Source: Leptolyngbyaceae cyanobacterium M33_DOE_097
Lineage (GTDB): Bacteria > Cyanobacteriota > Cyanobacteriia > Leptolyngbyales > Leptolyngbyaceae
Reading direction: 5' to 3'
Assembly: GCA_015296075.1 (NCBI GenBank)
Contig: DVDV01000273.1
Location: 1-40,995, forward strand
Length of the DNA: 40,995 bases
Shown here: positions 6,801-36,327 of the stretch, piece by piece
Numbering within the stretch: the stretch's first letter is position 1
Layout of the letters: the number at the start of each line of letters is the position of its first letter
Made by a program: the position numbers and the translations under genes
Notes under the pieces: model-generated
Told to the model about the DNA's origin: nothing
Database searches by the model: none
The model's input: the letters and a program-made list of their open reading frames with translations, nothing else

Positions 6801-7100
6801 TCGGTCACTTCGGCAAGTTCGGCAGCGAAAGGGATTGAGGCTCTCTTACAAACTCGATTTGACATTTTGGTTAGTGATATTGGCATGCCTGAAATGGATG
6901 GTTATATGCTGATGCGTCAGATTCGATCGCTCCCCAATGAGCAGAGAAGACAGATACCCGCGATCGCATTAACCGCCTATGCAGGCGAAATTGATTATCA
7001 GCAGGCGATCGCAGCCGGGTTTCAACGACATATCTCTAAACCTGTCAGCCCCAATGACTTAATCAAAGCAATCTTACAATTGTTAGGACGAGACACTTAA
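834..7100 (+). CDS. Multi-PAS hybrid sensor histidine kinase with C-terminal receiver (2088 aa)
   Basis: A soluble sensor kinase; no transmembrane segment is evident. I count about twelve PAS/PAC units from roughly residue 50 to 1660. Most end in a PAC-like D-I-[ST]-[DE]-R-K/H linker followed by a short coiled segment of the ALRxSEERLR type. The kinase core follows: an H-box (SHELRSPLNP) with the expected phospho-accepting His1694, an N-box with Asn1811 (LLSNGVKFTP), then DTGKGIAP and GGLGLGLAI. The last ~125 residues are a receiver domain (ILVVDDDADTRD), with phospho-acceptor Asp2015 in VSDIGMPEMDGY and a KP motif near the end. By family, it should autophosphorylate on His and pass phosphate to its own receiver, probably then to an HPt protein or separate regulator not in the window. 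The signal is unknown; PAS domains may bind haem, flavin or small ligands, and none can be assigned from sequence. The gene stands alone. Confidence 0.95.
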   Translation: MTEVSKTATEEVFVARGELDALLRSGFSTSKTVALQPLLDLPELRSQRFKTALGLLLNACCPAFLVWGRDRLLFYNNAYADLLEQSDILAPLGQSINQTRNRDWRQVRSRVEQTFATGQAARYENEGLLGKLSNSIKVGIFTWAYAPLWDAVGKVEGAFVTGYPVFNAQGNSSVHAETVVADLDHETVAPANAISFHQIGDHLPMMIWISAPDGAGAWFNQPWYEFTGQTQEEALGDGWLTMLHPDDAVVVYQTCMQAHQNHESVQLEYRLRRHDGQYRWVFDSAVPWFDKNGAYLGYIGSIIDITERKRIETDRKQAQIERERLFTELAEERAHFEAVLRQMPEGVLIADAATGNLVLANDQTKQILCYKHELNVELKSQELLVPFQAYRPDGRLYAVEEYPLMRSLQQGEVISHEEIELRYDDGRRIIIDVNSSPIFDSQGNITSAVAVFQDITERQQTEAALRSSEISHRTLSEAVPDFVWACDENGRADFVNARWLEYTGLTIEELNRGGLDQVNHPDDFPRLMAEWESARQRGESFESEFRYRRKDGEYRWFMGRAVPIKDDRGKIVRWVGTTTDIHALKQAEAALRQSETILKSFIASSPIGMAFFDRDFRYIYANEALAAINGIPLSDHLNRTLREVLPQWAPIVEPIFQQVMDSQIPLLNQEVIGATNPDDFVRYCLVNFFPVCLPDGTVIGLGVTDLDITEHRQAEEALRRSEERLRISQDLSLDGFTILDCVRDETHAIADFVWSYVNPKAAEILQHPAAELIGQSLLSVLPSNRFNLDLFERYVRVVETGESHDIELNYEAAGMLRWFRNMAVKLEDGVAVFFSDITERKHSEQALLASETTARRRAEELAALMEVTPAAIWIARDPLCHRVNANQTAHQLMRTQPGIVTTATPEDGNCVLPFKQLRNGQELAPQDLPLQKAIRLGQEIVDELEFVFEDGTVRFLYGKAVPLHNADGQVRGAVAAFIDISDRKQIEQALQSSEERLRFALEGADLGTWEYDLVSGQIIWSERTRIMTGVPLDVPVDYERFIHSIHPDDRNWVSLAIERAIAEQSLYDVEMRIIWADGSTHWVRSIGRTQYDDHGTPVRMIGVALDVTARKQTEAALRQSEERLRLAMEGAQMATWDVDLITGKAIWSDYHFAVLGYEPTSTGEASVALWYDRVHPDDRDWVTQEWNQAQQEHRLYRAEYRVIRADNGQLAWIEGLGRFTYNQNDEAIRSIGILLDISDRKQTEISLAAQEQRYRYIFQAVNVSIWEEDFSEVKAAIDQLKATGIKDFRQYFSEHPEFVQEAIDKVRLCDINQASLQLFKAQDKVELLNSLEQIFTPETQAAFVEELVAIAREETSFATETVLRTLQGEHINVWFSISFPPPAEPYDRVLISLLDISDRKRTEAALRESEGQLRLAQQAAGAGLWDWNIESNQVTWSEEYYQLYGLDRRSVMPSYENWLMSILEIDRERVDRAAREALEYCTNLNVEFRVQHPTKGLCWLTAIGQTFYNADGQPIRMTGIALNISDRKQAEAALRDSEERLRLALVAAHQGLYDLNVQTGEAIVSPEYAQMLGYEPSEFKETQEKWRDRLHPDDMAATYQAYVDYVSGKLDTYRVEFRQRTKQGSWKWILSLGKIVAWDGDGSPLRMVGTHTDITDLKQAQQEREKLLAREQAAREQAENANRIKDEFLAVLSHELRSPLNPILGWSRLLQTGKLNETKTQQALETIERNARLQSELIEDLLDVSRILQGKLSLAVSPVNLTTTVQAAIETVRLAAEAKSIQLEMRLESRGGLVLGDSTRLQQVVWNLLSNGVKFTPAGGRVEVRLEQIERQIEGQTSRSIEGQEINPLSSQTATTSLLHPYAQITVSDTGKGIAPDFLPYVFDYFRQEDGATTRKFGGLGLGLAIVRHLVELHGGTIRVESPGENRGATFIVQLPLLKEEDPDMRESVTNAALKLPTVYPLANLHILVVDDDADTRDLIVFLLEQSGASVTSASSAAKGIEALLQTRFDILVSDIGMPEMDGYMLMRQIRSLPNEQRRQIPAIALTAYAGEIDYQQAIAAGFQRHISKPVSPNDLIKAILQLLGRDT

Positions 7101-10938: not shown

Positions 10939-11778
10939 TCAATCGTCACTGCTAAAGTAGCGATCAAGAAAGTTTAGCGCATGATTGCGCAGCTCAAAGT
11001 AGAGCGATGATTCACGGAGCTGCTGGCGATCGCGGGGATGGGGAAACGGTACTTCCAAAATTTCGCCAATTTGCGCGTTAGGGCCATTTGTTAGCATCAC
11101 AATGCGATCGGACATATAGATCGCTTCATCCACATCATGCGTAACCATCATCACGGCCTGTCGATGATTTTCCCAAATATCGAGTACCTGCTTCTGCAAC
11201 TTACCGCGTGTCAGTGCATCCAGCGCCCCAAAAGGTTCATCCATCAGCAACATTTTAGGCCGAATCGCCAATGCGCGAGCAATCCCAACCCGTTGTTTCA
11301 TCCCGCCTGAAATCTCATCAGGATACTTATTGGCTGCCCCCATCAGGTTAACCATTGCCAGGTGTTCATTTACAATTTGAGCCTTTTCTGAATTGGGCAG
11401 CCCTTCTAGCACTTCATCAACTGCTAAACGTATATTCTCGCGTACAGTTAACCAAGGTAAGAGCGAGTAATGCTGAAACACCATCATGCGATCGCACCCC
11501 GGCTTGCGAACCTCCTTACCTTCGAGTGTCACTAATCCAGAGGTGGCCCGTTCTAACCCTGCAACAATTTTAAGCAGGGTAGACTTACCACAACCCGAAT
11601 GCCCAATCAGAGAAACGTACTCATTTGCACTAATTGTCAGGTTGATATTGTCTAACACAACAAACTCGCCCCCATTAGAGGCGGGATAAGCCTTAGTCAG
11701 GTTCTCAATCACGAGAAAGTTAGCCTCGGAAGATTGAGTAGGATTGTTGTCAGGAGATTGAAGTGTTGATTTGAACAT
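10939..11778 (-). CDS. ABC transporter ATP-binding protein, NrtD/CmpD/SsuB type (279 aa)
   Basis: The cytoplasmic ATPase that powers the importer encoded just upstream. Walker A is GHSGCGKST (59-67), the Q-loop follows MVFQHYSLLPW, the signature is SGGMKQR (157-163), Walker B is MLLMDEP (176-182) and the H-loop is in MMVTHDVDEA. Q-loop and signature context match the nitrate/bicarbonate/cyanate/sulfonate class. It is a single-domain ATPase; there is no fused C-terminal binding domain as in NrtC or CmpC. GGAG with 5-nt spacing precedes the ATG. It is the last gene of the three-gene unit, 93 nt after the binding-protein gene. Substrate is unresolved. Confidence 0.92.
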   Translation of the reverse strand: MFKSTLQSPDNNPTQSSEANFLVIENLTKAYPASNGGEFVVLDNINLTISANEYVSLIGHSGCGKSTLLKIVAGLERATSGLVTLEGKEVRKPGCDRMMVFQHYSLLPWLTVRENIRLAVDEVLEGLPNSEKAQIVNEHLAMVNLMGAANKYPDEISGGMKQRVGIARALAIRPKMLLMDEPFGALDALTRGKLQKQVLDIWENHRQAVMMVTHDVDEAIYMSDRIVMLTNGPNAQIGEILEVPFPHPRDRQQLRESSLYFELRNHALNFLDRYFSSDD

Positions 11779-11871
11779 ATTTACTCCAGATGAAAGGGAA
11801 AAGGTCGGGGAATGGAAGAATGTAGATAGATAAAAAGGAATCAGAAGAGATGAAAAATGGAAGGATTGGCG

Positions 11872-13293
11872 TTAACTTAGATAGATTTTGGTGGGTCGAT
11901 GGCTGCCAATTTCAAAGCTATTGAGGTAGCTGACCGGATCACTGGGGTCAAACCCTTTTTTGTCAATAAAAAGGTCGGGTGATTCGACCTTGAAATCATC
12001 TTTAGGACATTCAATTCCCATTTCGGTGGCAACTTCGCGGTAAATGTCGGCTCGCCAACCCTTGACCGCTAATTCTTCGGCGTTTTTAGGAAATTCTTTG
12101 ATCTGCCCCCAACGGGCTGCTTGGGTCATTAACCAGATACTGCGCGATCGCCAGAGAAAAGTAGAGTGTTCGCCTGCTTCTTTGGGGATGTTGTCGGGGA
12201 TGTCGTAGAAGATGGTTGTGTCTGGGGAAGCAATCGTGCGGTTTTTGCCGTCAAATCCCCCATAGTTGTACTCACCCACGATCGCCGGACGGGTAAATTT
12301 ATCGACAGGGCCTGTTTTAGGTTTGGCTCCAGTAAATGAGCGATCAGTAATCAGTTTGGCAACTTCTGCTCGGTTTTCGGGTTTGCTGCAATATTGGCAG
12401 GCTTCGATCATAGCTTTGAGTAGCGATCGATAGGTCTTGGGATAGTTGGTGATGAAGGATTCCATCACACCCAGCAGGCGATCCGGATGTCCTAACCAAA
12501 CTTCTTTACCCTGCGCGAAGGTAAAACCGACTCCAGCATTCCCTGAAATAGCACGGGTGTTCCAGGGTTCAGCAACCATGTAGCCCTGCATTGCGCCAAT
12601 CCGCACGTTAGTCACCATTTGCGGCGGTGGAATGATGATGATCCGAAATTCTTTGTCGGGTTCAACCCCAGCTGCCGCCGCAATATAGCGAATAAAGTAT
12701 TCATAAATCGAAGAACTCAACACCACAGCCCAGACTCGATTTTCGGGCGGTTGGCTAGCAAAATAATTGCGAAACTGCTGACCAAAAGCTTCGAGGTTGC
12801 CGTTGTACTCGTACCAGGGACGCAAGCCAAAATCCCACATGGCTTTATTCATTGTCATCGCGTTACCGTGACGGTGAATCGTCATCCCAGCACAGAGCGG
12901 CGCATGGCGAGCACCCTCTGCACCAATGCGGGCGTTGGTCACGGCTCCAGAAACAACGGGTGCAGCATCCAAGCGGCCAAAAATGACACCATCCCGCGAG
13001 GTTGCCCAGCTGGCTTCCCGGTTGAGTTGCACGTTTAGCCCATACTTGCGAAAGAAGCCTTTTTTCCAGGCGATCGCAAACGGAGCGCAATCATTCACAG
13101 GCACGTAACCTACAGTAATATCGGGTTTTTCCAGTTCTTCCGGGCGAATCACTTGTTGAATAGCGCGGGCTTCTTCGGTTAATCCTTGAGCGGAGCGATC
13201 GGCATTCACATTACAGGCTGCCAGCGCCATTGTTGTGGCGGTTGCTCCAGCACCCAGCAAAAACTCCCGCCGTGTCCAGTGGTTAGTGTTCAT
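11872..13293 (-). CDS. NrtA/CmpA-family substrate-binding lipoprotein (473 aa)
   Basis: The extracytoplasmic receptor of the ABC importer. The N-terminus has a twin-arginine motif (TRREFLLGAG) and a lipobox ending LAAC, so it is probably Tat-exported and lipid-anchored. The mature part shows NrtA/CmpA-family features: VGYVPVNDCAPFAIAWKKGFF near the start, an ASWATSRDGV loop, then PPPQMVTNVRIGAMQGYMVAEPWN and HPDRLLG. The family binds nitrate, nitrite, bicarbonate or cyanate. The match is divergent from textbook NrtA or CmpA around the ligand loops, and I cannot assign the anion. It is the second gene of the unit, between permease and ATPase. At 473 residues it is slightly longer than the usual ~445-452. 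Confidence 0.88.
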   Translation of the reverse strand: MNTNHWTRREFLLGAGATATTMALAACNVNADRSAQGLTEEARAIQQVIRPEELEKPDITVGYVPVNDCAPFAIAWKKGFFRKYGLNVQLNREASWATSRDGVIFGRLDAAPVVSGAVTNARIGAEGARHAPLCAGMTIHRHGNAMTMNKAMWDFGLRPWYEYNGNLEAFGQQFRNYFASQPPENRVWAVVLSSSIYEYFIRYIAAAAGVEPDKEFRIIIIPPPQMVTNVRIGAMQGYMVAEPWNTRAISGNAGVGFTFAQGKEVWLGHPDRLLGVMESFITNYPKTYRSLLKAMIEACQYCSKPENRAEVAKLITDRSFTGAKPKTGPVDKFTRPAIVGEYNYGGFDGKNRTIASPDTTIFYDIPDNIPKEAGEHSTFLWRSRSIWLMTQAARWGQIKEFPKNAEELAVKGWRADIYREVATEMGIECPKDDFKVESPDLFIDKKGFDPSDPVSYLNSFEIGSHRPTKIYLS

Positions 13294-13484
13294 AGCGATA
13301 ATTTTTAGTGTCTGTTAAATTTCTTTTTGCTTGTTCTTCCACATCTAGGACTGATCACTTTTACAATTCAGACTTCTGAGCAGATAGTCTCCTGACATAT
13401 CTCACAAACTCATCCAGAAGTTGTATCCCAATCCTATCTATCGACTCAGATCCTCGATCTCGTTACCAGTTCAGTGCTTGAGCA

Positions 13485-14339
13485 TTAATTGGTTGTGAGC
13501 GGTTTGCGGTGCGTAACTAGAACCTGTAACCGAGCCAGGGCAAAATCCAACAGCAAACCTGTGACACCAATGACTAACACAGCTAGAAAGACTGAACTGA
13601 GATTTAAGCGACTCCACTCATCCCAAACGAAAAAGCCAATGCCAATGCCGCCTGTCAACATCTCGACCGCTACGATAACGAGCCAAGCAATGCCTAAGCT
13701 GATGCGTAAGCCAGTGAAAATATAGGGTAGGCTAGCTGGCAAAATGATCTTGTAGATCTGTCGCCATTTCGGCATTTCCAGCACACAGGCGACATCAATG
13801 AAGTCTTGAGAAACACTCGAAACACCCAGAGCGGTGTTAATAATCGTAGGCCACAAAGACGTAATGAAGATAACAAAGATAGCCGAAGGATCAGCCAGGT
13901 TAAAGATTGCCAGGGCGATCGGCAACCAGGCCAGCGGCGACACAGGCTTAAAGATTTGAATAACTGGGTTTAACGCCAGCATCATCGGGCGTGACATGCC
14001 AATTAAAAAGCCAATCGGAATCGCCACCAAAGCGCCCAGTACAAACCCAATCAAAACCCGTCTTAGACTCGCAATTAGTAACCAACCAATTCCTAAATCA
14101 CCAGGCCCGCGTTGATAAAAAGGATTGAGAATGAAGTCTAAGTTGTTGACAAAAGCTTCGGGTGGAGTCGGCATCAGATCGCTCCGCAGCAGGGCGATCG
14201 CCCACCAAAGCACAATAATGCCGAGAAAACCCAGGGCGGGTAAAAATACACTTTCCTTGGCAAGCAAAGCCTTCGATCCCTTCCAGGTTGCCTGAGTTGC
14301 GACGGCAAAAACTGCCGCCAGATTCATCTGCACGCTCAT
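13485..14339 (-). CDS. ABC transporter permease, NrtB/CmpB/SsuC type (284 aa)
   Basis: Inner-membrane channel subunit of the importer. About six hydrophobic segments are visible. The cytoplasmic coupling (EAA-like) motif is DVACVLEMPKWRQIYKIILP, followed by SLPYIFTGLRISLGIAWLVIVAVEML, typical of the NrtB/SsuC class. Length matches the family. A GGAAGAA purine run precedes the ATG at 14339; an internal ATG at 14327 is possible. It is the first gene of the unit. There is a 191-nt gap before the binding-protein gene, long enough for a separate promoter, though I see none clearly. Confidence 0.9.
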   Translation of the reverse strand: MSVQMNLAAVFAVATQATWKGSKALLAKESVFLPALGFLGIIVLWWAIALLRSDLMPTPPEAFVNNLDFILNPFYQRGPGDLGIGWLLIASLRRVLIGFVLGALVAIPIGFLIGMSRPMMLALNPVIQIFKPVSPLAWLPIALAIFNLADPSAIFVIFITSLWPTIINTALGVSSVSQDFIDVACVLEMPKWRQIYKIILPASLPYIFTGLRISLGIAWLVIVAVEMLTGGIGIGFFVWDEWSRLNLSSVFLAVLVIGVTGLLLDFALARLQVLVTHRKPLTTN

Positions 14340-24176: not shown

Positions 24177-26936
24177 ATGGAAATTCTCTCCGTTGCGCTC
24201 AAGAATTTTAAGTCTCATGCCGATCGCCATTTCGCGTTTGAACCGGGCATGAACGCTATTTGTGGCGAGAATGGAGCAGGTAAAACCAGCATCCTAGAGG
24301 CGATCGCCTGGGCGCTGTTTAATCATCGCGGAGCTTATACAACCGATGATTTGATTCGTAACGGGGCAGGCAGTGCCCAGGTAGCGGTTGAGTTTGTCTC
24401 AAATCGCGATCATCGTACTTATCGCGTTCAACGCTGTACTCGTGCAGGCTACACGATTTACGACCCTCAGTTGGGGCAAAAGCTTGATTACACACGCATC
24501 GATGATGAAGTGATGCCGTGGTTGTGTGATCACTTTGGGTTGCCGCGTGGAACGGACTTAGGACGCTTATTTGCTAACACAATTGGAGTGCCGCAGGGTA
24601 CCTTTACGGCTGATTTCCTCAAAACTGATAAAGAACGTCGCGATACCTTCGACAAAATTCTCAAACTGGAGGAGTATCGTCAGGCGTATCAAAAAATGGC
24701 ATCTTTGGAGAAGTTTGCGAAGGCAGATGCCGAAAGTGTTGAACGCGCGATCGCCCGTTACGACGAAGAGTTAGAAGGGTTTGACCAGTTGCAAACTCGT
24801 CAGCAAGCCCAAGTTCAAGAATTGCAGCAAGCGCAAGCAGAGCTACAACAAACTCAAACCGCGATCGCACAGCTGCAACAAGAGCTAGAGCAACTGACAG
24901 CACAGGCGAACCAGATTCAGCAGCTTGAGCGAGACGGTGAGCAACTGCAACTGCAAATTCAGGCGCAAACTACTTACCTGCAACAGCTTCAGGTCGATTT
25001 GCAACAGTCAGAAACGGCAACTGCTATTTGTACGCAACATCGTCCAGCGTTTCAGGCTTACCAGCAGGCAGAGCAGACGTTGACTGAGCTAGAGCAACAG
25101 CGTAAACAAGAGCGATCGCTGCAACAACAATTGGTCAAGCACAATCAACAACTTGCCAAACACGAAGCCCAACTGGCCGCTTTGACGAGTCAGCAGACAC
25201 GTTTAGCACAAGCACAAGCGACCCTGGAGCAACTAACCCCCAAAATTGAGCAGCAAACGCAGTTAGAAACAGATCTGCAAGCGATTCGTGAGCAACTTCA
25301 GGCGATCGCCGCCCTCAAGCAGACACAGCAGCAGCAAACGATTCAGGTGGCTCAAAAGCAAGCGCAGCTCCAGACCTTAGCTACCAAAATTGCCAAAACT
25401 CAAGCGTTGGCTAAACCAATCCAACAAATTCCAGCGTTAGAGCAGCAACAACACCGACTCCAACAACAAATCAGTCGCATTGCGGCAGCCCAACAGTTTG
25501 AAGCCGACTTGCACCAACTGGTTCAACAAGCCGACCTGACCGGGCAACAGCAGCAAGTGCGCAGCCAACACGCGATCGCCATCCTATCTGAAATTCAGCA
25601 AACAGTGCCATTATGGAGCGATGCGGTTGCATCGGTGGTGCAGGTGATTCAGCAGGGAGGCGACTGGCAAGCCCAGGTGATGCAAGCCCTACGTGGCATT
25701 CTGGCTGACTTGAGTGAGCAAATCGATCCCGACAAGTTGGAGCAACAACTGCACCAGATCCAAACAGATTTGCAATTGGCGCGCCAACAACAAGCCGAGT
25801 ACGCCAATTTAGAGTGGTTGCTTGATCAGCAGGAAGAGCTGACCACCGCGATCACCGAATTGCAAACCAGCTTACCTCTACTGCAACAACAGTTGGCAAC
25901 CGTGCCAGTGTTAGAACAACGGCACACAGTTCTGACCCAACAGTTAACGACTTTGGATGACCCACGCGGGCGGTGTCGGTTGTTGCAACAAGAATTGCGT
26001 CAAGCAGGAAAACTAGAAGGTGAGCTAGAAACTGTTCAGGCAGCCATTTCGACCGTTCAGGGGGCGATCGCGCAGGTTCAAGCAGAACTGGTTGTATTTC
26101 ATGATTTAGATGAACGTGTGCAAGCTCAACAAGCCATTCGGATTGAACATCAAGTAGCCTATCAAGAGTATCTGGCCTATCGTGAACTGGCGAATACGCG
26201 CAAATCAAAACAACAACAGATCCAGGAAGTAACAGACCAGCTTGAGGTCTTGCAAAACAAGTATCAACAGGTGAATCAGGAGGGCGATCGCTGCCGTCAA
26301 AACTTTGATGTGCAGCAGTTTCAAACCCTGCAACTGGCCTACCAAAATGCGAAAGAAAAGCAGATTGCGCTCAACGCCAATTTGCCAACTTTGCAAAAAC
26401 TGTTAGCGGAACTCGATCAACAACTCGGTCGTCTCACGACTCTCAAAACCGAACGAGCTACAGCTGCCGCCCAACTAAAACAACAACAAAAAGTAACCCG
26501 GTTTATCAAATTTGCGCGTGAGAGCTATAAAAAAGCGGGGCCGCGCATTACAGAGCGCTATGTGCAGCGCATTTCCTGGGAAGCCGATCGCCTATTTCGT
26601 GAGTTGCTCAACCGCCCTAATGTCAACCTGGAGTGGACTCGCGATTATGAAATCCTTGTGCGTGAAGAAGCTCATACCCGTCGCTTTGTTAATCTCTCAG
26701 GGGGTGAGCAGATGTGTGCAGCTCTTGCTGTGCGACTCGCGCTGTTAAAGGTGTTAGCCGATCTAGATGTCGCTTTCTTTGATGAACCGACAACCAATAT
26801 GGATAAGGCACGTCGTAGTCATTTAGCCGACGCAATTTCAAATATCAAAAGCTTCCGACAGCTTTTCGTTATTAGTCACGATGATACCTTTGAAAATCTC
26901 ACAGGTAATGTCGTTATCGTCCAGCGGGAAATCTAG
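24177..26936 (+). CDS. SbcC/Rad50-like SMC-family ATPase (919 aa)
   Basis: Architecture is that of Rad50/SbcC: an N-terminal ATPase half with Walker A GENGAGKTS (30-38), a long Gln-rich coiled coil from about 180 to 800, and a C-terminal half with the ABC signature LSGGEQ (840-845), Walker B DVAFFDEP (864-871) and H-loop ISHDD (His901). By family it would form a dimer that tethers and processes DNA ends with the nuclease SbcD/Mre11; no sbcD is adjacent. The CxxC zinc hook expected at the coiled-coil apex is absent: the seven Cys are isolated from one another. The middle (~430-530) instead has a less coiled segment around WSDAVASVVQVIQQGGDW. It is shorter than E. coli SbcC (about 1050 residues). 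Assignment to the family is secure, exact orthology less so. Confidence 0.9.
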   Translation: MEILSVALKNFKSHADRHFAFEPGMNAICGENGAGKTSILEAIAWALFNHRGAYTTDDLIRNGAGSAQVAVEFVSNRDHRTYRVQRCTRAGYTIYDPQLGQKLDYTRIDDEVMPWLCDHFGLPRGTDLGRLFANTIGVPQGTFTADFLKTDKERRDTFDKILKLEEYRQAYQKMASLEKFAKADAESVERAIARYDEELEGFDQLQTRQQAQVQELQQAQAELQQTQTAIAQLQQELEQLTAQANQIQQLERDGEQLQLQIQAQTTYLQQLQVDLQQSETATAICTQHRPAFQAYQQAEQTLTELEQQRKQERSLQQQLVKHNQQLAKHEAQLAALTSQQTRLAQAQATLEQLTPKIEQQTQLETDLQAIREQLQAIAALKQTQQQQTIQVAQKQAQLQTLATKIAKTQALAKPIQQIPALEQQQHRLQQQISRIAAAQQFEADLHQLVQQADLTGQQQQVRSQHAIAILSEIQQTVPLWSDAVASVVQVIQQGGDWQAQVMQALRGILADLSEQIDPDKLEQQLHQIQTDLQLARQQQAEYANLEWLLDQQEELTTAITELQTSLPLLQQQLATVPVLEQRHTVLTQQLTTLDDPRGRCRLLQQELRQAGKLEGELETVQAAISTVQGAIAQVQAELVVFHDLDERVQAQQAIRIEHQVAYQEYLAYRELANTRKSKQQQIQEVTDQLEVLQNKYQQVNQEGDRCRQNFDVQQFQTLQLAYQNAKEKQIALNANLPTLQKLLAELDQQLGRLTTLKTERATAAAQLKQQQKVTRFIKFARESYKKAGPRITERYVQRISWEADRLFRELLNRPNVNLEWTRDYEILVREEAHTRRFVNLSGGEQMCAALAVRLALLKVLADLDVAFFDEPTTNMDKARRSHLADAISNIKSFRQLFVISHDDTFENLTGNVVIVQREI

Positions 26937-27101: not shown

Positions 27102-30100
27102 TTAGATGTGAAGTTCATATCCAACCTGTTGAATTTTGTGCTTCCAACTCTGTGATTTTAGAAAGTCTGCAGCGATTTGGCTGCGTTGATTAGCTTCCTC
27201 TGGGTTCAAAAAAATGCGTTCCAAAGTTTCTAGCAATTCTTCCACATCAACCTCAGTTAGACCGTCTAGTTCAACATTTAGTCCGGCGCGAGTAGCTACA
27301 TTTTGAGTCAGTAAGGGGTAGCCGAGGTTTTGTTGTGTCAGGTCGCGTAAGCCTGTATTGGCTGCAAGAATTGTTGGCACACCACAGGCAAGACTCGCGA
27401 TCGCCAGCGCATTGTTGACACAACAACGGTTGGGCAAAACCACCACATCGGCTTCACGCAGCAGGCCAGCCAGTTGAAAGTAAGGCGTCGCCCCCAAATG
27501 ACACACCACATCATCCGGTAAATCAATTGGTAGGGCTGCTTCCGTGTTGGCCCAACTTGTAACCAGTAACGCATTAGGATGATGCTTAGCAAAGACCTGA
27601 AAGGCTTTGATTAGCAGGTCTTGTCCATTCAAGTAGTTACAGTCTCCCCCTGAAAAGACAACAAAGCGCCCCTCAAATAGACCACTCCGAGGGGCGGAAT
27701 GAAATTGAGAAGTGTCAACCCCCCAGGCTAAGGTCTGGACATTTTGAATACCCTGTTGGTGTAAGTAGTGCGTCGCCCACTGGCTAGGCGTGATCACCTG
27801 TAAGCAAGACCTTGCCTCCGCGATCGCCCTTGGGCTGAGGTCTTCTGCATCAATCACGATGCCCACACTTGGATCAGAGGTGGAGCTGGTGGCTTGCTCA
27901 CTCAACCGTTGCCATCGGGTGACGACACGCCCCTTAACGGATTGATCCGCTCCCGGAGCCAGCGATCGCAAATGGTGCTGATACAACGGGGGCAAGTGGG
28001 TCGGCGGGTTCACCAATTCGACGGGTTGCGCCGTAACCCTGGGTAAATAGAGAGCAACTTGCAACGCCCAAATGCCTGCATCTGATTCTAAATCGGGTTG
28101 AATTTCGAGCCAGATCGGTGCAGCAGCTGAGGTCTGGGCTGGTTCAGAGAGAAAAACCGTTGGGTGGCGATCGCCCGCTGCCAAGGCTTCTAGCTCGCCC
28201 TGCACCGCTTGAAAGACGCTGCCCCAATCAGCCCACTTCGGCTGGCGAAACAAGCGCATATTGGGATACCAGGGACTATCCGCACGTTGCAACATCCAAC
28301 GCCAATCAGGGGCATAGTGGAGTAGTACCCAAACGGGTTTACCCAGCGCGCCCGCCAGGTGAGCCACCGACGTATCAACCGTGATCACCAGATCTAATTG
28401 CTCCATCCACGCGGCGGTATCAGCAAAATCTTGAACATGGGGACTCAAATTAGCGATCGCTAATTCAGGGTGCTGGTTTAAGTCTTGCTCAGCATCCCCT
28501 TTCTGCAAGCTAAAGAACTGCGTATTTGGGATCTGCAACAACGGCTGAAAGTCGGTCAGCTTACACGACCGCAGATGATTATTCCGATGATTAGGATTTC
28601 CCATCCAGGCAATCCCAATTTTGAGGGCAGGGGATGACAGCATCTCGGCTGGAGCCACAGTGCTACGGAGATAGGGAACCTGCGCCGGAAGATTCTCTAA
28701 AGTGGTACCCAAGGCTTTAGGCAGGCTGAGCAAGGGGATATGGACATCAAAATCCGGTAAAGGGCTCTCTTGCGGAACCAGTTGGTCAATCCCCTCAACA
28801 GATTGCAGCAGCCGCAACAGAGGTGCCTGACACTCGACCACAACCCGTCCGCCTTTGGCTTTCACCAGCGGAGCAAACCGAATAAATTGGAGCGTGTCGC
28901 CAAAACCTTGCTCGGCATGGAGCAAGATTGTTTTACCATTCAGGTCAGAGCCGTCCCACTCTGGCTGGGTGAACGGACGCCGTTGCCAGTGGTCTTGCTG
29001 CCAGCGCCATTCATTCTCAATGAAGCCTTCTAAAAAGTCGCCCTGAATCAGCAGCGCATGCCCCAGGTTTTTGTGGGCACTGACAAAGTCGGGCTTCAGC
29101 TTAATCGCCGTGCGGTAATGGGCGATCGCGCCCTCAATATCCCCCGCTTGCCGTAGCATAAAGCCCAAGTTGTAGTAAATTTCGGGGGCATTGGGTTTGA
29201 GGGCTAAAGCCTGACTTGAATGGGCGATCGCGCCCTCTAGCTCTCCCTGTTCGCGTAGCACAATCGACAAATTTTGGTGCGCTTCGACAAACCCTGGCTG
29301 AATCTCCAACGCTTTGCGATAACCCGCGATCGCCCCATCAGAATCCCCTTGCTCGTGTAATAAGCCGGCCAAATTGCCCCAGGCTTCAGCGTAGTTTGGT
29401 TGCAGCTCTAAAACTTGACGAAGCGTGGCGATCGCGGCATCCGTTTGTTTTAACTGGCAGAGCATCACTCCCAGCGTATGGAGTGCTACCGGATTATCGG
29501 GTTGTTCAGCTAAAATCTGCCGACATAGATTCGCCGCTGTCTCATAGTCTTGCTTTTTGTAGTGCTGAAAGGCTTGATCAATCAGGGCTTGCGCGTCGAT
29601 CGGCGCCTTTGACCGCGATGGCGTTTTAGCAGGAGCGATCGCCCGATTCGCTACGGTTTCTGCCAGTTGTGCCTCAATTTGTTGGAGAACCGGCTTCCAG
29701 TCACCCACACTGACCTGCCGAAAGAGCTGCACCGTCGGATACCAGGGACTATCGCTGCGTGTCATCATCCAGCGCCAGTCGGGGGCAAAGGGCAGAAACA
29801 ACCAAACAGGTTTACCCAACGCACCGGCCAGGTGAGTCACCACCGTATCAACCGAGATGACCAGATCCAGTTGCTGAATCAGCGCTGCTGTGTCAACAAA
29901 GGTTTTCATTTGTTCGCGCAGATCGATCACCTCTGAGTGAGCCGCTAGCAGGGCTGAATCAGCCTCTGTCATCTCTTTTTGCAAGCTGTAGAGCTGCACC
30001 CCTGTCAGCTTTGCCAGTGGCAATAAATCCTGTAAAGGCACGGTGCGCGAGCGGTTGTAGGTATTCTGTGGGTTCCCCGTCCAAACTAGCCCGACCTTAA

Positions 30101-33100
30101 AGGATCGATGGGGTGCGATCGGGGGCGGTAACGTTGCATCTGTTGGCGGCACAGCCAGGTAGGGCAAGGTCGCGGGAATCGTTTCCAGTCGAGTTCCCAG
30201 AATGTGCGGCAAACTCATTAACGGTGCGTGTACGTCAAACCGATCAGGCACGCTGCCGTAGGGCACAACCTGCACCACATGGGGTTGCTGACTCAAGAGC
30301 GGCATCAGTGGTTTGTGACATTCCAGCAGAATCCTGCCGCCTTTGGCCGCCGCGATCGCCACATACCGAAAGAAGTGCAACACATCCCCCATACCCTGCT
30401 CAGCATGCAGAAAGAGAATTTTGCCATTCAGCTCAGATCCATCCCATCGGGGTTGAGAAAATTGACGCATTGGCTGAAAATTGGGCATTTTGACCTGCCA
30501 GCGCCATTCATATTCAGCAAACCCCCGCTCTAAATTCCCCTGCAACAAATGAGTCAGAGCCTGATTCCAATGAGCTTCGGCAAAATTGGGTTCAATTTGA
30601 ATCGCGCGATCGTAATAGGTCATTGCCGTCTGCAACTCACCGCGATCGCGAAAAACGTTACCCCAGTTATTAAAAGCCTTGGCGTAGTCCGGTTTGAGGG
30701 CGATCGCCCGTTCATAACAGAGACTCGCCTCGTCAAAGTCCCCTAATTCTTTCAGGGCATTACCCAGGTGATTGTAGGCTTGATGATAGGTAGGCTTCTG
30801 CTCAATCGCCTGTCGATAAGCGGTTGCAGCCTCAAGAAACTGCCCCTGAGTATAGTAAGCCAGTCCCAAATTATTATAAGCATCGGGATAATCAGGACGA
30901 TGCTGAATCGCTTTTTGATAGTGATAAATAGCCCGGTCTAACTCACCCCGATCGCGGAGAGCATTGGCGAAATTGTTGTGCGCGTCAGCATACGTCGAAT
31001 CAATCGCCAGCGCTTTCTCATAACAGGCGATCGCCTGCTCTAAATTACCCTGTTGTTGGTAAGCAACCGCAAGATTGTTGTAGGTTTCGTGGTGGTTGGG
31101 ATCAATCGTTAAAACCCGATTGTAATAGGCGATCGCCTCATCAAATCGTTTTTGTTGGTGGGTTGCCAATCCCAATAGATGCCAACCTTCTAGTACATCT
31201 TGCTGCGCTACGAGCTGCTGACAGACCTGTTCCGCTGCGCTAAAGTTTCCCTGGTTGTAATACTTAACCGCCACATACAACTCTGCTGGCAGTATTTTTT
31301 CCTGCTTATTTTCAGTAACCGTCTCGGTCTTCAAAGCCACAATCGGTTTAGACTTCGGCGTAGTCTCCCTTACTTTCTTTCCCTTACCTTTAGTCTTTCT
31401 CCCAAATGGCTCCTGACGTTTACCGCCAGACTTCTGTTGATTTACACCTACTGTCTCCTCTTTTTTCGCTTCTTCCGTCCCCGCGATCGCCTGCCGCACC
31501 CGCTCAATCACTCCACCCCATTCCCCAGCTTGCTCTTGCCGAAAGATTTGCAATGTTGGATACCAGGGACTGTCAGCCCGATGCAACATCCAGCGCCAAT
31601 CGGGTGAAAAAGGCAACAACAACCAAACAGGCTGTCCCAAAGCTCCTGCCAGATGGGTAACAGCCGTATCGACGGAGATCACCCGATCCAATTGTTGAAT
31701 CAGAGCTGCCGTATCAACGAAATCACCCATTTCAGCACTGAGGTCAATAACTTCTGGGTGTGCTGCCAGCAAAGCCGCATCTAGTTCAGACACTTCTTTT
31801 TGTAAGCTGTAGAGCTGAATACCAGGCAAGCTCGATAACTCCAACAACCGTTCGAGTGGAACCGTTCGATTGCGATTGTAAGGATTAGCTGGATTCCCTG
31901 ACCAGACGATACCGACCTTGAGCGGGGTGGAGTCGGCTGTTGTTGCCTTTGGCGGTGGCAAGGTTTTGGAGGAACCCGACAATTGCAGGTAAGGCACGTG
32001 CGCGGGTACTGTCTCCTGCGTGCTGCCCATCAAGTATGGGAGGCTAAGCAGCGAAACGTGATAATCGAAATCCACTGGGGTTGGGTTGCCTTGCGGAATC
32101 AATTGATAAATGCCTTCAATCCCCTGCAATAAACGGATTAACGGCAGCGGACACTCAACCAAAACCCGTGCCCCTTGCGCCGCTAACACAGGAACGTAGC
32201 GGATAAATTGAATTGTGTCTCCCAAACCTTGTTCGCAGTAAATCAGTAATGTCTTACCAGCCAACGATGAACCATCCCAGTAAGGCTGTGGGTAAGGCCG
32301 GGGAGGGTGCAGTTGGCAAAACTTGCGCCATTGTCGTCGCCATTCATAACCCGCAAAACCAGACGCAAAATCTCCTTCTAAAAGCTGGTTGAGCGCCAGG
32401 TTCCAACGTGCTTCGACACAATCAGGAGCCAGCTCGATCGCCCGATTGTAGGCGGCTAATGCCTCACTGACACGGCCACAATTACGTAGGGCAATCCCCA
32501 TGTTGTTATAGGTGCCTGCGTGGTCGGGTTGCAGGGTGAGCGCCTGGTCAAAGTGGTGAAACGCGCCTTCATAATCCCCGACATATTGCAGCATATTGCC
32601 CAAATTGCTGTGAACTTCCGCCACATCAGGTTGTAGCTCCAGTGACCGACGGTAGGCCGCGATCGCCTCATCCAGCTTGCCCTGGGCAAAGTAAGTATTG
32701 CCGAGGTTGTTGTGTACCTCTGCCGAGTCAGGTTTGTTAGCAATCGCTTTTTCTAACTCTGCGATCGCTTCCTCGTATTTACCCTGATCACGCAGGGCAG
32801 ACCCTAAATTGCTGTGGGCTTCGGGCATTCCAGGTCGCAACTCAAGTGCCCGTTGATAAAGTGCGATCGCCTCATCCACTTTGTTTTGAGCTTGTAGCGC
32901 ATTGCCCAGATTGTTACAGACTTCAGCGTAGTTTGGGCGCAGCTTCAAAGCCTGCTGATACATAGCGATCGCCTCATCCAGCTTGCCCTGTTGATGCATA
33001 GCATTCGCAACGCCATGATAGGCTTCGGCAAAATCGGGCTTTAACGCAATCGCTTGTTGGTGGTAGGCTTCAGCTTCGGCATATTGACGAAGTTGTTGTA

Positions 33101-33764
33101 AAGTGCCCCCTAAGCCGTGATGCGCTTCGGGATAGTTGGGTTTGAGCGCGATCGCCTGTTTGTAATAGGTGATCGCCTGCGTAAGTTCGCCTTGTTTTTG
33201 AAAGGCTGACCCTAAGTTGTGATGTGCTTCAGGATAATTAGGCTTAAGTTGAATCGCCATTTGATAATGCGCGATCGCATCTTTAAGTTGACCGATATCC
33301 TTTAAGGCAACCCCAAGATTGTTGTGCCCCTCAGCATGATCCGGCTTCAGGTCGAGCGCCTGACGGTAAGCTGAGATCGCCCCTTCTAAATCCCCCATCT
33401 CGCGCAGAGCATTACCCAGATTGCTATATACCTCTGGGTGATCCGCCCGAATCGCGAGTGCTTGTCGATAATAATCAACCGCTTCACGCAGTCGCCCTTG
33501 CGCCCGTAGCACAATGCCCACACTGTTGAGTGGATCCGCATTGGCTGGTTGGAGCGATCGCACCCGTTCAAAACACGCGAGCGACTCATCGAATCGATTC
33601 TGCTGGTAGAGCAGGGCACCCAATAAATTCAACGCATCGACATAGTTGGGGTCTTGCTCTAACGCCCGCCGATATAAGGCTTCTGCCTCGGTCTGTTGTC
33701 CGGCTCGGTAGGCAGCAAGAGCCTGTGAAAGTAGCGATCGCGCTGTTTCTAGCGAGTTAACCAT
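27102..33764 (-). CDS. Three-module TPR/GT9-like glycosyltransferase with GT4-like tail (~2220 aa)
   Basis: Start taken as the ATG at 33764; an in-frame GTG lies at 33788. Three units each consist of TPR repeats followed by a GT9-like (heptosyltransferase-fold) domain. Unit 1: about 14 TPRs to ~475, GT ~480-770. A Lys-rich linker runs ~770-830. Unit 2: about 8 TPRs, GT ~1090-1380. Unit 3: about 6 TPRs from ~1400, GT ~1590-1870. In each GT domain the motif EQGxGD starts near 511, 1122 and 1618, and DTxVxHLAGALGxPVW near 699, 1306 and 1797. Both are typical of bacterial TPR-linked GT9-like proteins. Residues ~1890-2220 form a GT4-like domain (RFVVFSGGDCNYLNGQDLLI, SLACGVPTILA), but the usual EX7E acidic pair reads Cys and Ala. 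Inferred role: protein or surface glycan glycosylation in the cytoplasm, with TPRs choosing partners. The gene is monocistronic. Confidence 0.9.
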   Translation of the reverse strand: MVNSLETARSLLSQALAAYRAGQQTEAEALYRRALEQDPNYVDALNLLGALLYQQNRFDESLACFERVRSLQPANADPLNSVGIVLRAQGRLREAVDYYRQALAIRADHPEVYSNLGNALREMGDLEGAISAYRQALDLKPDHAEGHNNLGVALKDIGQLKDAIAHYQMAIQLKPNYPEAHHNLGSAFQKQGELTQAITYYKQAIALKPNYPEAHHGLGGTLQQLRQYAEAEAYHQQAIALKPDFAEAYHGVANAMHQQGKLDEAIAMYQQALKLRPNYAEVCNNLGNALQAQNKVDEAIALYQRALELRPGMPEAHSNLGSALRDQGKYEEAIAELEKAIANKPDSAEVHNNLGNTYFAQGKLDEAIAAYRRSLELQPDVAEVHSNLGNMLQYVGDYEGAFHHFDQALTLQPDHAGTYNNMGIALRNCGRVSEALAAYNRAIELAPDCVEARWNLALNQLLEGDFASGFAGYEWRRQWRKFCQLHPPRPYPQPYWDGSSLAGKTLLIYCEQGLGDTIQFIRYVPVLAAQGARVLVECPLPLIRLLQGIEGIYQLIPQGNPTPVDFDYHVSLLSLPYLMGSTQETVPAHVPYLQLSGSSKTLPPPKATTADSTPLKVGIVWSGNPANPYNRNRTVPLERLLELSSLPGIQLYSLQKEVSELDAALLAAHPEVIDLSAEMGDFVDTAALIQQLDRVISVDTAVTHLAGALGQPVWLLLPFSPDWRWMLHRADSPWYPTLQIFRQEQAGEWGGVIERVRQAIAGTEEAKKEETVGVNQQKSGGKRQEPFGRKTKGKGKKVRETTPKSKPIVALKTETVTENKQEKILPAELYVAVKYYNQGNFSAAEQVCQQLVAQQDVLEGWHLLGLATHQQKRFDEAIAYYNRVLTIDPNHHETYNNLAVAYQQQGNLEQAIACYEKALAIDSTYADAHNNFANALRDRGELDRAIYHYQKAIQHRPDYPDAYNNLGLAYYTQGQFLEAATAYRQAIEQKPTYHQAYNHLGNALKELGDFDEASLCYERAIALKPDYAKAFNNWGNVFRDRGELQTAMTYYDRAIQIEPNFAEAHWNQALTHLLQGNLERGFAEYEWRWQVKMPNFQPMRQFSQPRWDGSELNGKILFLHAEQGMGDVLHFFRYVAIAAAKGGRILLECHKPLMPLLSQQPHVVQVVPYGSVPDRFDVHAPLMSLPHILGTRLETIPATLPYLAVPPTDATLPPPIAPHRSFKVGLVWTGNPQNTYNRSRTVPLQDLLPLAKLTGVQLYSLQKEMTEADSALLAAHSEVIDLREQMKTFVDTAALIQQLDLVISVDTVVTHLAGALGKPVWLFLPFAPDWRWMMTRSDSPWYPTVQLFRQVSVGDWKPVLQQIEAQLAETVANRAIAPAKTPSRSKAPIDAQALIDQAFQHYKKQDYETAANLCRQILAEQPDNPVALHTLGVMLCQLKQTDAAIATLRQVLELQPNYAEAWGNLAGLLHEQGDSDGAIAGYRKALEIQPGFVEAHQNLSIVLREQGELEGAIAHSSQALALKPNAPEIYYNLGFMLRQAGDIEGAIAHYRTAIKLKPDFVSAHKNLGHALLIQGDFLEGFIENEWRWQQDHWQRRPFTQPEWDGSDLNGKTILLHAEQGFGDTLQFIRFAPLVKAKGGRVVVECQAPLLRLLQSVEGIDQLVPQESPLPDFDVHIPLLSLPKALGTTLENLPAQVPYLRSTVAPAEMLSSPALKIGIAWMGNPNHRNNHLRSCKLTDFQPLLQIPNTQFFSLQKGDAEQDLNQHPELAIANLSPHVQDFADTAAWMEQLDLVITVDTSVAHLAGALGKPVWVLLHYAPDWRWMLQRADSPWYPNMRLFRQPKWADWGSVFQAVQGELEALAAGDRHPTVFLSEPAQTSAAAPIWLEIQPDLESDAGIWALQVALYLPRVTAQPVELVNPPTHLPPLYQHHLRSLAPGADQSVKGRVVTRWQRLSEQATSSTSDPSVGIVIDAEDLSPRAIAEARSCLQVITPSQWATHYLHQQGIQNVQTLAWGVDTSQFHSAPRSGLFEGRFVVFSGGDCNYLNGQDLLIKAFQVFAKHHPNALLVTSWANTEAALPIDLPDDVVCHLGATPYFQLAGLLREADVVVLPNRCCVNNALAIASLACGVPTILAANTGLRDLTQQNLGYPLLTQNVATRAGLNVELDGLTEVDVEELLETLERIFLNPEEANQRSQIAADFLKSQSWKHKIQQVGYELHI

Positions 33765-33954
33765 GAACCCAGAGTACGGGTGAGTCACAAATCCCGTTCT
33801 ACATGGCTCCCTATTCTATCGAGGCTTCTCAATCTTGAACCGACGATCTGTGACTCAATTTTCTGTTTCTGAGCCACATTGGGCACAAATTCTGTCCCAT
33901 TACCCAGAATTGAGATTTGCGACAATCCCAACTACGAATCCTGTCCGGTTGCAC

Positions 33955-34044: not shown

Positions 34045-35847
34045 CTAACCTTCCCCTTTCTTCAGCGGCGGCTTGTAAGTCGAAGCAACCTGCAACTCCT
34101 TCAACTGCTTCGCATCGACCCCCGAAGGTGCCCCCGTCAATAAACAACGAGCCTGCTGCGTCTTCGGAAACGCGATCGCATCTCGAATCGACTCCTCGCC
34201 AGTCAACAACATGACCCAGCGATCGATTCCGTAGGCAATCCCACCGTGAGGCGGTGCGCCATACTCAAAGGCTTCAAGGAAAAAGCCAAACTTGCCACGT
34301 GCATCCTCTTCTGACAAGCCAATCAAGTCAAAGATCTGCGCCTGCATCTCAGGTTGGTGGATCCGCACACTACCCCCCGCCGCTTCATAACCGTTGAACA
34401 CGAGGTCATAGGCCAGCGATCGCGCTGTTTTCAAGTCATCCATATCATCGGGGTGGGGAGCCGAAAAGGGGTTGTGGGCTGAATCCAGACGCTTTTCATC
34501 CTCCTTCCACTCAAACATCGGGAAGTCAACCACCCACAAGAGATTAATCTTGTCGGGATCAACTAGCCCTTGCTCGCGCGCCACTACCTGCCGCAAGCGA
34601 TCGAGGGTTTTATTGACAGTCGGGCTGTCTCCCGCGCCAAACAGCAGCAAGCACCCGGCTTCAGCACCTGTTCGCTTGAGAATCTCTTGCTTTTGCGCTT
34701 CAGAGAGATTGTCTTTGATAGCACCAATCGTATCGATCTCGCCATTTTCTCGCACCCGAATATAGGCAAGCCCCTTAGCTCCTGCATCAGTAGCTTCCTT
34801 GAACAAATCCCCACCTGGCTTGATCCGTACGTTGGAGATCAGGTCATTACCGTTGGGAATTGGCAAAATCTTGACGATGCCACCTTTTGCAACCGCATCC
34901 GAAAACACCTTGAAGCCCATGTCCTTCACAACATCAGACACGTTCACCAGCTCCAACCCGTAGCGCGTGTCCGGCTTATCGGATCCATAGCGATCCATCG
35001 CTTCTTCGTAGGTCAAGCGTGGAAAGGGACGCGGAATGTCAATCCCCTTCAGCGTCTTAAACAAGTAGCACACCAGCCCCTCATTCAGATCCAAAATTTC
35101 ATCGCGTGACATGAAACTCATCTCCATGTCGAGCTGGGTAAACTCTGGCTGGCGATCAGCGCGCAAGTCTTCATCGCGGAAGCAGCGAGCCACCTGGTAA
35201 TAGCGATCGCAGCCCGCAATCATCAACAACTGCTTAAACAACTGAGGTGACTGGGGTAAGGCAAACCATTCGCTGGGGTTAACGCGTGACGGCACCAGGT
35301 AGTCTCGTGCGCCTTCGGGTGTGGATTTGGTTAAAATCGGCGTTTCGACCTCCATGAAGCCTTCCATATCTTCAAGGTAGCGACGCATCGCTTTGATCAA
35401 CTCATGCCGCATTTGCAAATTCTTTGCCATCCGTTCGCGCCGAATGTCGAGGTAACGATACTTTAACCGCAACTCTTCACGCACCGCCTCAGTCTCAGCA
35501 CTCGAAACCTGAAAGGGCAACTGTCGGCGCACCGCATTCAAAATCTCAATCTGATCCGCGTAAATCTCAACTTCGCCCGTTGGCAGCTTAGGGTTCAATG
35601 ACTCTGGTGGGCGTTGAGTCACCCGACCTGTGATTTTGACAACGTACTCATTGCGAAGGCTATCAGCCCCACTATAAGAATCAGGCGTACGTTCGGGATC
35701 GCTGACAATTTGGACAATCCCGCTGCGATCGCGCAAATCAACAAAAATGACACCGCCATGATCGCGACGGCGATCGACCCATCCACACAGGGTGACCGTT
35801 TGCCCAATATGTTCCGCTCGGAGCTGACCGCAGTAGTAACTTCGCAT
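34045..35847 (-). CDS. aspS: Aspartyl-tRNA synthetase (600 aa)
   Basis: Charges tRNA(Asp), and in organisms lacking AsnRS also tRNA(Asn). The true start is the ATG at 35847 ([20 protein letters not shown]); the frame extends 43 codons further upstream but that part is unlike the family. In order: an N-terminal OB anticodon-binding domain ([24 protein letters not shown]), class II motif 1 region (FMEVETPIL), [22 protein letters not shown], motif 2 ([20 protein letters not shown]), the bacterial GAD insertion, and motif 3 ([13 protein letters not shown]) with its Arg. The length of about 600 is normal for bacterial AspRS. No T-box or other leader control is apparent. A palindromic repeat element lies right after the stop. 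Confidence 0.97.
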
Positions 35848-36327
35848 GATTTCCCAGAAAAATTGCCAGATATAGAAGTATGGGTTAAGTGTAACGACTC
35901 CAAACCGTCTGGAGAGACTTAAGAGCCGCCTTTTCTGCCAGAATACAAACCTTCTCATTATCGCGTATCCGGTCACGGCTGACGCATTCCCCGCTTGAGA
36001 AGAAGAAACTTACTCAAGAAATCGGGTTGAGACGGCTTAGCAAAACCATTGATCGCCTGTAAAAGTGACAGTTTTTAAGGCTTAGCATTCTTAAATCGCT
36101 GATAACTCGATTGTTTTGATCGCGATCGCGAACATTGACTGCTCGATCTCCTGACAAACCCTTTGAAGCTTAGCGACTAAAACACCAGCACAGGCGAGTT
36201 TGTGATAGATTGAAGAACTATCGGTTAAGTTACTTAAAGAAAAGTAAGTTCCTGATTCTCTCCCTGTAGATCTTTAAAAGGAGGCGGCTATCTCTGAGGC
36301 TTTCAGAGAACTGAAGCCGATTTCAAA
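35848..36327. other. Divergent intergenic region between aspS and ktrA
   Basis: These 480 bp hold promoters of both genes; none is clear enough to call. The 43-codon upstream extension of the aspS frame (35848-35976) looks non-coding. Toward ktrA lies a strong AAAGGAGG (36277-36284) followed by a perfect 7-bp hairpin (36291-36309). Confidence 0.4.
36277..36309 (+). promoter_or_regulatory. Displaced Shine-Dalgarno and hairpin in the ktrA leader
   Basis: AAAGGAGG (36277-36284) would be an excellent ribosome binding site but lies 43 nt before the GTG start of ktrA. Between them is the stem TCTCTGA (36291-36297) / TCAGAGA (36303-36309) with a 5-nt loop. The stem includes an in-frame TGA (36295-36297), so the ktrA frame cannot begin closer to this site. 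It may serve a short leader frame, or be coincidental. Confidence 0.3.

Follow-up and report, generated by a model that had tools for sequence, protein, structure and literature searches.

The window analysed here is a 40,995-nucleotide stretch of DNA from Leptolyngbyaceae cyanobacterium M33_DOE_097 (contig DVDV01000273.1), and it carries on its minus strand one very long gene in which arrays of tetratricopeptide repeats (TPRs) alternate with glycosyltransferase (GT) domains. The open reading frame (27102..33788) is uninterrupted and encodes 2228 amino acids from a GTG codon at 33788, or 2220 from an ATG at 33764, the latter being the length and end coordinate from which the original prediction had started. 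Three TPR-then-GT9 units follow one another along the chain. Unit 1 opens with 13 repeats (32379..33746, minus strand like all features of the gene; residues ~15-470), detected with a 34-residue TPR hidden Markov model (HMM) built in this analysis, and continues into GT9-like domain 1 (31428..32366, residues 475-787), which displays EQGLGD at residue 519 and DTAVTHLAGA at 707. The TPR array of unit 2 (30495..31286, residues ~835-1098) is modelled as eight helix pairs and leads into GT9-like domain 2 (29613..30530, residues 1087-1392), the alpha/beta glycosyltransferase part of the model, with EQGMGD at 1130 and DTVVTHLAGA at 1314. Unit 3 consists of four HMM-detected repeats (29034..29561, residues ~1410-1585) and GT9-like domain 3 (28134..29033, residues 1586-1885; EQGFGD at 1626, DTSVAHLAGA at 1805). 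The chain ends in a GT4-like domain predicted to be catalytically degenerate (27105..28076, residues ~1905-2228), whose altered motif NRCCVNNALAIASLACG (27381..27431, residues 2120-2136) occupies the place where most tails outside the three-unit clade read CEGGTNLxAME. The architecture originally proposed, three units each bearing both an EQGxGD and a DTxVxHLAGALG-type motif and then a GT4-like domain, is thus borne out, the last element by a match to PF00534. The TPR counts first given as 14, 8 and 6 were right in declining along the chain; the HMM, however, finds 13, 6 and 4, while the eight repeats claimed for unit 2 agree with the eight helix pairs of the model. The HMMs used for architecture calls were built from the same proteins to which they were applied.

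Is such a triple array genuine? Between units, the DNA of the GT9-like domains is 56-57% identical, with 33-40% identity at third codon positions, and the longest exact match between any units spans 14-17 nucleotides. A genome of the same genus encodes a full-length orthologue of 2315 amino acids, whose GT9-like domains are each 65-66% identical to their counterparts in the window protein and whose GT4 domain is 48% identical. An assembly artefact joining tandem single-unit genes could be invoked on the grounds that the genome is a draft in 437 contigs, but the divergence of the units and the finding of orthologues with this order in further assemblies, among them the single-contig genomes G024 and G011 (G, L and C numbers are our handles for genomes, loci and contigs), make its probability negligible. 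As the units share so little DNA identity and same-order orthologues occur in other genera, we regard misassembly as excluded. Of the two concerns voiced at the outset, wrongly joined tandem copies and single-unit genes at a matching locus in relatives, the former can be set aside; the latter survives in the sense that unit number does vary at one locus in other families, as described below.

The three GT9-like domains score 25.7, 25.7 and 25.3 bits against PF01075 (Glyco_transf_9; curated cut-off 22), and their pairwise identity within the protein amounts to 54% (1-2), 51% (1-3) and 48% (2-3). EQGxGD, the D, T, H and L of DTxxxHL, SLQ, DWRW and other residues are retained in 60/60 GT9-like domains tested, and judging from this sequence record the three sites are probably active. 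Membership of GT41 was considered, given a similar overall build, and is ruled out by sequence: PF13844 (Glyco_transf_41) does not appear among matches up to E 1 for any of the three domains, and the PF13844 matches of the window genome lie on contigs C370 and C344, with none on C7. Seventy-five alignment columns reach at least 90% conservation in units 1, 2 and 3 alike; the conserved residue changes with position in four of these columns, and in three of the four it sets unit 3 apart from units 1 and 2. Units 1 and 2 therefore probably do much the same thing, with the same or a similar donor, and unit 3 may use a different one. We abandoned the idea that position-specific residues prove different donors, since only four of the 75 columns vary. 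An argument against a heptose donor from missing ADP-heptose genes also failed: two rfaE_dom_II (HldE-like) genes score above cut-off in the window genome, so that ADP-heptose is a possible donor.

The C-terminal domain reaches 29.0 bits against PF00534 (cut-off 26.4), and a sequence search of solved structures returned no match to it. Its model (predicted local distance difference test, pLDDT, 83; predicted template modelling score 0.53) adopts a GT4 fold when compared with BshA/HepE type enzymes (Z 29-30, root mean square deviation 2.9-3.7, 309-318 residues aligned), and its top Foldseek match is the capsular polysaccharide multienzyme 8qoy (E 3.2e-11). The two glutamates of the GT4 EXnE motif serve in catalysis and nucleotide binding. 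At this site the window protein reads CCVNNALAIAS, both glutamates being gone; among the tails of the three-unit Leptolyngbyaceae clade the second is lost in 10/10 and both are lost in four, the window protein included. Outside the clade, GKLExRKGQD and both glutamates of EGGTNLxAME are kept in 32 of 34 tails, among them those of the two single-unit proteins from the window's order (G029 and G030). The two exceptions, L114 (9449-11755) and L126 (254-1864), are both single-unit proteins without the glutamates, and so the decay extends beyond the three-unit clade. These counts come from an alignment of 30 rows (29 of 37 tails plus the window protein), to which the other eight and G011, G024, G029, G030, L114 and L126 were added. 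Glutamate loss, together with the absence of the whole domain from four three-unit chains of a single genus, argues for decay of GT4 within the clade, where the domain probably no longer performs GT4 catalysis. The GT4 assignment of the original prediction thus holds for profile and fold, but an active enzyme is improbable here.

How widespread is the three-unit form? Within the order, a GT9-like match at E <= 1e-10 is present in 28 of 42 genomes and a complete three-unit chain in one frame in 12, eight of which end in GT4 and four without it. Further chains are cut at contig ends (for example G039, G025 and G003), and in G033 a stop separates units 2 and 3. At L073:6618-12469 a stop parts unit 3 from the first two units of a three-unit gene (1505 and 435 amino acids, 26 bases apart), and the same split occurs in Stenomitos frigidus ULC18 (L093). 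The search of cyanobacterial genomes for the same domain order thus yields three-unit orthologues in other genera. In a tree of 60 domains, from which one short row was dropped, GT1 and GT2 form a clade together (support 100/99), as do GT2 (99/92) and GT3 (97/89) by themselves, GT1 alone not being a resolved clade. The proposed order of events, an older unit 3 and a later duplication that produced units 1 and 2, is supported by the first two of these clades. The term triplication is nevertheless too simple: the duplication of units 1 and 2 stands, but deep support (75/74) is too weak to derive unit 3 from the same chain. The window genome also encodes a paralogue, TPR-GT9-TPR-GT9-FkbM (contig C404, L030:293-4369), which is conserved in both genomes of the genus (L031:4588-8730 in the other; the own-genome copy was scanned with Pfam) and whose domains fall outside those of the window protein in the tree. 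It shares the same type of unit, two in a row, but terminates in an FkbM methyltransferase in place of GT4.

Beyond the order, the three-unit form proves to be one point in a series. In a scan of named genomes, whose best 80 of 318 encoding stretches correspond to 70 loci and supply all unit tallies given here, cyanobacterial chains comprise one to seven TPR-GT9 units and usually end in GT4. The three-in-a-row arrangement highlighted at first therefore exists but is not unique. Single units with GT4 occur at L097, L098 and L114, and also at L126, where no TPR was detected before the GT9; two units are found at L136 and L143, four at L134, six at L151 and seven at L113. Five units characterize 20 frames of Microcoleus, Tychonema, Oscillatoria and relatives, including the complete genome of Microcoleus vaginatus HSN003 (L111). 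GT4 closes 19 of these 20 frames, and the six- and seven-unit frames are without it. Many of the relatives' records are metagenome bins, and frames split in two at L103, L106 and L118 are either real or due to sequencing errors. At 29 of the 58 loci examined the gene lies directly downstream of a UbiA prenyltransferase gene. Here the count is five at 19 loci, three at L132 and L141, four at L134 and six at L151, the others being split or cut; unit number therefore changes in place. Since the five-unit form is also present in the complete genome of M. vaginatus HSN003, we read these differences as real gain or loss of modules. In a broader sample of the phylum, with at most eight candidates scored per genome among those shown, only 12/292 genomes yield a match when a strict cut-off of 1e-105 is applied.

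Separate unit expansions in several lineages are supported by the phylogeny. In the smaller of two domain trees, clades are formed by the five Microcoleaceae units (100/99), Leptolyngbyaceae units 1 and 2 (99/96), Laspinema units 2 and 3 (100/99), three units of Oscillatoria SIO1A7 (100/98), three of L102 (94/94) and the seven of Hormoscilla GUM202 (99/95). FastTree applied to the larger set (101 domains from 32 of the 70 named loci, the window protein and its paralogue) recovers the same grouping for all but Hormoscilla, whose seven units are a clade solely in the smaller set (59 of the 101 domains); the larger tree interleaves these units, all from L113, with the two of another gene from Hormoscilla (L151:17692). 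The Hormoscilla GUM202 frame itself (L113:2651-13711) is 3686 amino acids long, and its seven units belong to two types (1, 4 and 5; 2, 3, 6 and 7). Some of the units resemble each other very closely, a similarity that may be due to recent internal duplication or to an assembly effect. Multi-unit chains of a divergent kind are also seen in Azospirillum halopraeferens, which has 23 GT9-like matches: three units in 1966 amino acids (L190:804-6704), and two in 1513 (L190:6628-11169) and 1217 (L193:4428-8081).

The surroundings of the window gene itself are less telling. Convergent to it lies a gene (24177..26936, plus strand) that, judging by its sequence, presumably encodes a SbcC/Rad50-like ATPase of the structural maintenance of chromosomes type, and upstream is what is presumably an aspartyl-tRNA synthetase-like gene (34045..35976, minus strand), named in the same manner. 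The SbcC-like gene also adjoins the same-genus orthologue, and among 18 loci it is common to that genome only; the synthetase-like gene was not found within the 5.4 kb fetched upstream of that orthologue. The shared flank was accordingly dropped as a functional hint. Elsewhere in the window, positions 834-7100 encode a 2088-residue protein with many sensor-like repeats, whose C-terminal end, judging by the sequence, looks like a hybrid histidine kinase with a receiver domain; on the same basis, 10939-14339 presumably holds genes of a nitrate-type ATP-binding cassette transporter (ATPase, binding protein and permease).

Neighbours of relatives are more informative. A GT2-TPR-methyltransferase gene (Pfam was run on one of its eight members) is near 8/18 loci of the order, the window's own locus not among them. 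Around the 58 loci, mostly of other families, genes of a family that combines GT2 with methyltransferase domains (c3) are near 13 and those of an FkbM methyltransferase family (c16) near four, one member of each having been scanned. A c3 protein at L100:13550-16804, 1084 amino acids with GT2 and two methyltransferase domains, is encoded convergently to a five-unit gene. The c3 protein is likely a partner enzyme, and the methyltransferase neighbours together with the FkbM paralogue point to a methylated glycan.

A link to a protein acceptor emerges in another class of bacteria. In the Rhodospirillales genome Glo_3, one stretch (L195:1253-15414) assembles a PseG-type gene, flagellin, a stand-alone GT4, a TPR-GT9, a Maf-domain gene and a TPR-GT41. 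The stand-alone GT4 is 46% identical to a C-terminal GT4 from Microcoleus, and the TPR-GT9 is 32% identical to window unit 2; the PseG-type gene scores above the TIGR03590 cut-off, and a cytidylyltransferase is PseF-like, below the cut-off of that model. Across the Alphaproteobacteria, GT4 homologues occur at 27 places in 17/289 genomes, and three of these places are no more than 1.5 kb from a flagellin match, where 0.11 would be expected (two of 26, P about 0.005, without the discovery genome), counting matches at E <= 0.001 including those below the family cut-off. Extending the distance to 6 kb gives six flagellin matches, three of them (G495, G593 and G382) below that cut-off. The 21 GT4 regions examined of these 27 places, several per genome in some cases (G382 gives four), include eight with TPR-GT9 in the stretch, three with flagellin and two with all three gene types. 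GT4 and TPR-GT9 are thus encoded apart, yet close to flagellin, in two alphaproteobacterial genomes.

Structure prediction adds to this picture. The model of unit 2 (mean pLDDT 95.1) combines a TPR superhelix with an alpha/beta glycosyltransferase domain, and its top Foldseek matches are SPINDLY (4.8e-19) and OGT (1.8e-16). Template modelling scores against both are low over the whole length, which we ascribe, on the model, to another orientation of the TPR and GT parts. A second structural comparison returned mostly TPR proteins and hence little information on the GT part; the TPR and GT9-like parts of the unit were compared together. The earlier idea of a TPR protein glycosyltransferase is backed by the SPINDLY and OGT fold matches and by the homologues near flagellin.

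From the architecture, conservation, motif retention and loss, module-number changes and neighbourhoods observed, we infer an activity, a protein acceptor, a donor and an order of sites as follows. We propose, with a probability of roughly 0.57, a cytoplasmic protein O-glycosyltransferase in which the TPRs hold the acceptor and three GT9-like sites are at work; the glycosyltransferase-methyltransferase neighbours and the alphaproteobacterial homologues near flagellin speak for it, as do the fold matches of unit 2 and the retained GT9 motifs. The TPR superhelices would bring the acceptor protein close to the three GT9-like sites, each of which would move a sugar from a nucleotide donor onto it. 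The GT4 domain, which in relatives is a partner enzyme, may have decayed in the clade to a non-catalytic or vestigial part, and the methyltransferase-glycosyltransferase fusions beside many relatives probably complete the glycan. What might the acceptor be? None of the 42 genomes of the order has flagellin, so that it must be something else here. Cyanobacteria also possess Ogt, a TPR glycosyltransferase from another family. An Ogt gene is reported to sit next to pilA in many cyanobacteria and to take part in PilA glycosylation (PMC12288463). With a cyanobacterial pilin so modified, a protein of the surface filaments or of the sheath, for instance pilin, is no more than a fair guess.

Several observations weigh against a protein O-glycosyltransferase. 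The PF01075 match is confined to a short C-terminal stretch (profile positions about 156-208 of 247), and a sequence search of solved structures gave no match to the GT9-like domain (best E 0.46). Neither a glycosyltransferase, a methyltransferase nor an evident acceptor gene sits directly beside the window gene, and TPR domains are also found in scaffolds that are not glycosyltransferases. The GT2 and methyltransferase neighbours would be compatible with polysaccharide synthesis too. Flagellin is missing from 18 of the 21 GT4 regions and TPR-GT9 from 13, while Flagellin_N is without a match in 42/42 genomes of the order; the flagellin connection is thus one of homology to another phylum only.

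Could the sugars be destined for something other than a protein? The GT9-like domains might add sugars to an oligosaccharide, either lipid-linked or free (exopolysaccharide, O-antigen or sheath), with the TPRs merely scaffolding partners, as in a polysaccharide or glycolipid synthase. The GT9 name belongs to heptosyltransferases (PF01075 description), two rfaE_dom_II genes could supply ADP-heptose, 8qoy heads the C-terminal Foldseek list and ranks 21st for unit 2, and the nearby GT2/methyltransferase fusions suit such a pathway. However, the order TPR then GT-B is typical of protein glycosyltransferases, and homologues are tied to flagellin in another class; we consider such a synthase the main rival, but the less likely of the two. 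That the chain is largely a non-catalytic scaffold, its GT domains acting as binding modules, would accord with the lost glutamates of the clade's GT4, but it sits poorly with invariant motifs kept in every one of the 60 GT9-like domains and with orthologue identity nearly equal across the three, and is very improbable.

If the protein O-glycosyltransferase we favour is correct, why repeat the unit? One answer, compatible with it, is a parallel, multivalent enzyme whose units, equal in specificity, raise avidity for a single long or repetitive acceptor or modify many of its sites, with no ordered chain. The scarcity of position-specific columns, most of them separating unit 3, and the two types of close copies among the seven Hormoscilla units suit this idea, whereas Leptolyngbyaceae units 2 and 3 and the five Microcoleaceae positions each form a supported lineage of their own, suggesting roles that are not interchangeable; we hold it tentatively, at somewhat less than even odds. 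A colinear assembly line is a more speculative and rather unlikely answer: each TPR-GT9 module would add one defined sugar, and module count and order would set the length and sequence of the glycan. Such a protein would be analogous to the modules of peptide and polyketide synthases, and module gain or loss at one locus would lengthen or shorten a protein-linked glycan. Whichever answer applies, the family offers a natural series for asking whether glycan length or site number tracks module number, and points to a protein glycosylation route in filamentous cyanobacteria. It looks as though evolution gains and loses sugar-adding modules, probably to decorate a surface protein.

How does this family relate to known systems? 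In the literature searched, which most subscription papers lie outside, we found no account of multi-unit TPR-GT9 proteins, the closest material being work on FlmG and flagellin glycosylation and a review of type IV pili; single TPR glycosyltransferases (OGT, SPINDLY and FlmG) are already known, and the repeated-unit family appears undescribed. With the GT9 heptosyltransferases the window protein has in common an above-cut-off PF01075 score in all three domains, but its domains differ in their short C-terminal profile match and in being fused to TPRs. Several transferase domains in one chain also occur in chlorovirus A064R and in bacterial two-domain capsule synthases, which are not known to have TPR units or a variable count of repeated units. 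OGT and SPINDLY (GT41) carry one GT domain per chain. The TPR superhelix joined to a GT-B domain is the feature they share with the window protein, a likeness and not a membership, as their GT domain is PF13844 and those of the window PF01075. A close layout is that of FlmG of Caulobacter crescentus, a 596-residue flagellin O-glycosyltransferase with N-terminal TPRs, reported to bind the acceptor flagellin, and a C-terminal GT-B-type domain (PMC7591256). Each window unit follows the same order, N-terminal TPR then C-terminal GT, and many single-unit TPR-GT9 proteins are close to FlmG in size; the likeness described here is one of domain layout. FlmG, however, is a single unit with flagellin as its acceptor, while the order of the window lacks flagellin. 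What appears to be new in the cyanobacterial family is that the whole unit of acceptor binding and catalysis is repeated one to seven times, separately in several lineages and with a count that varies at one locus.

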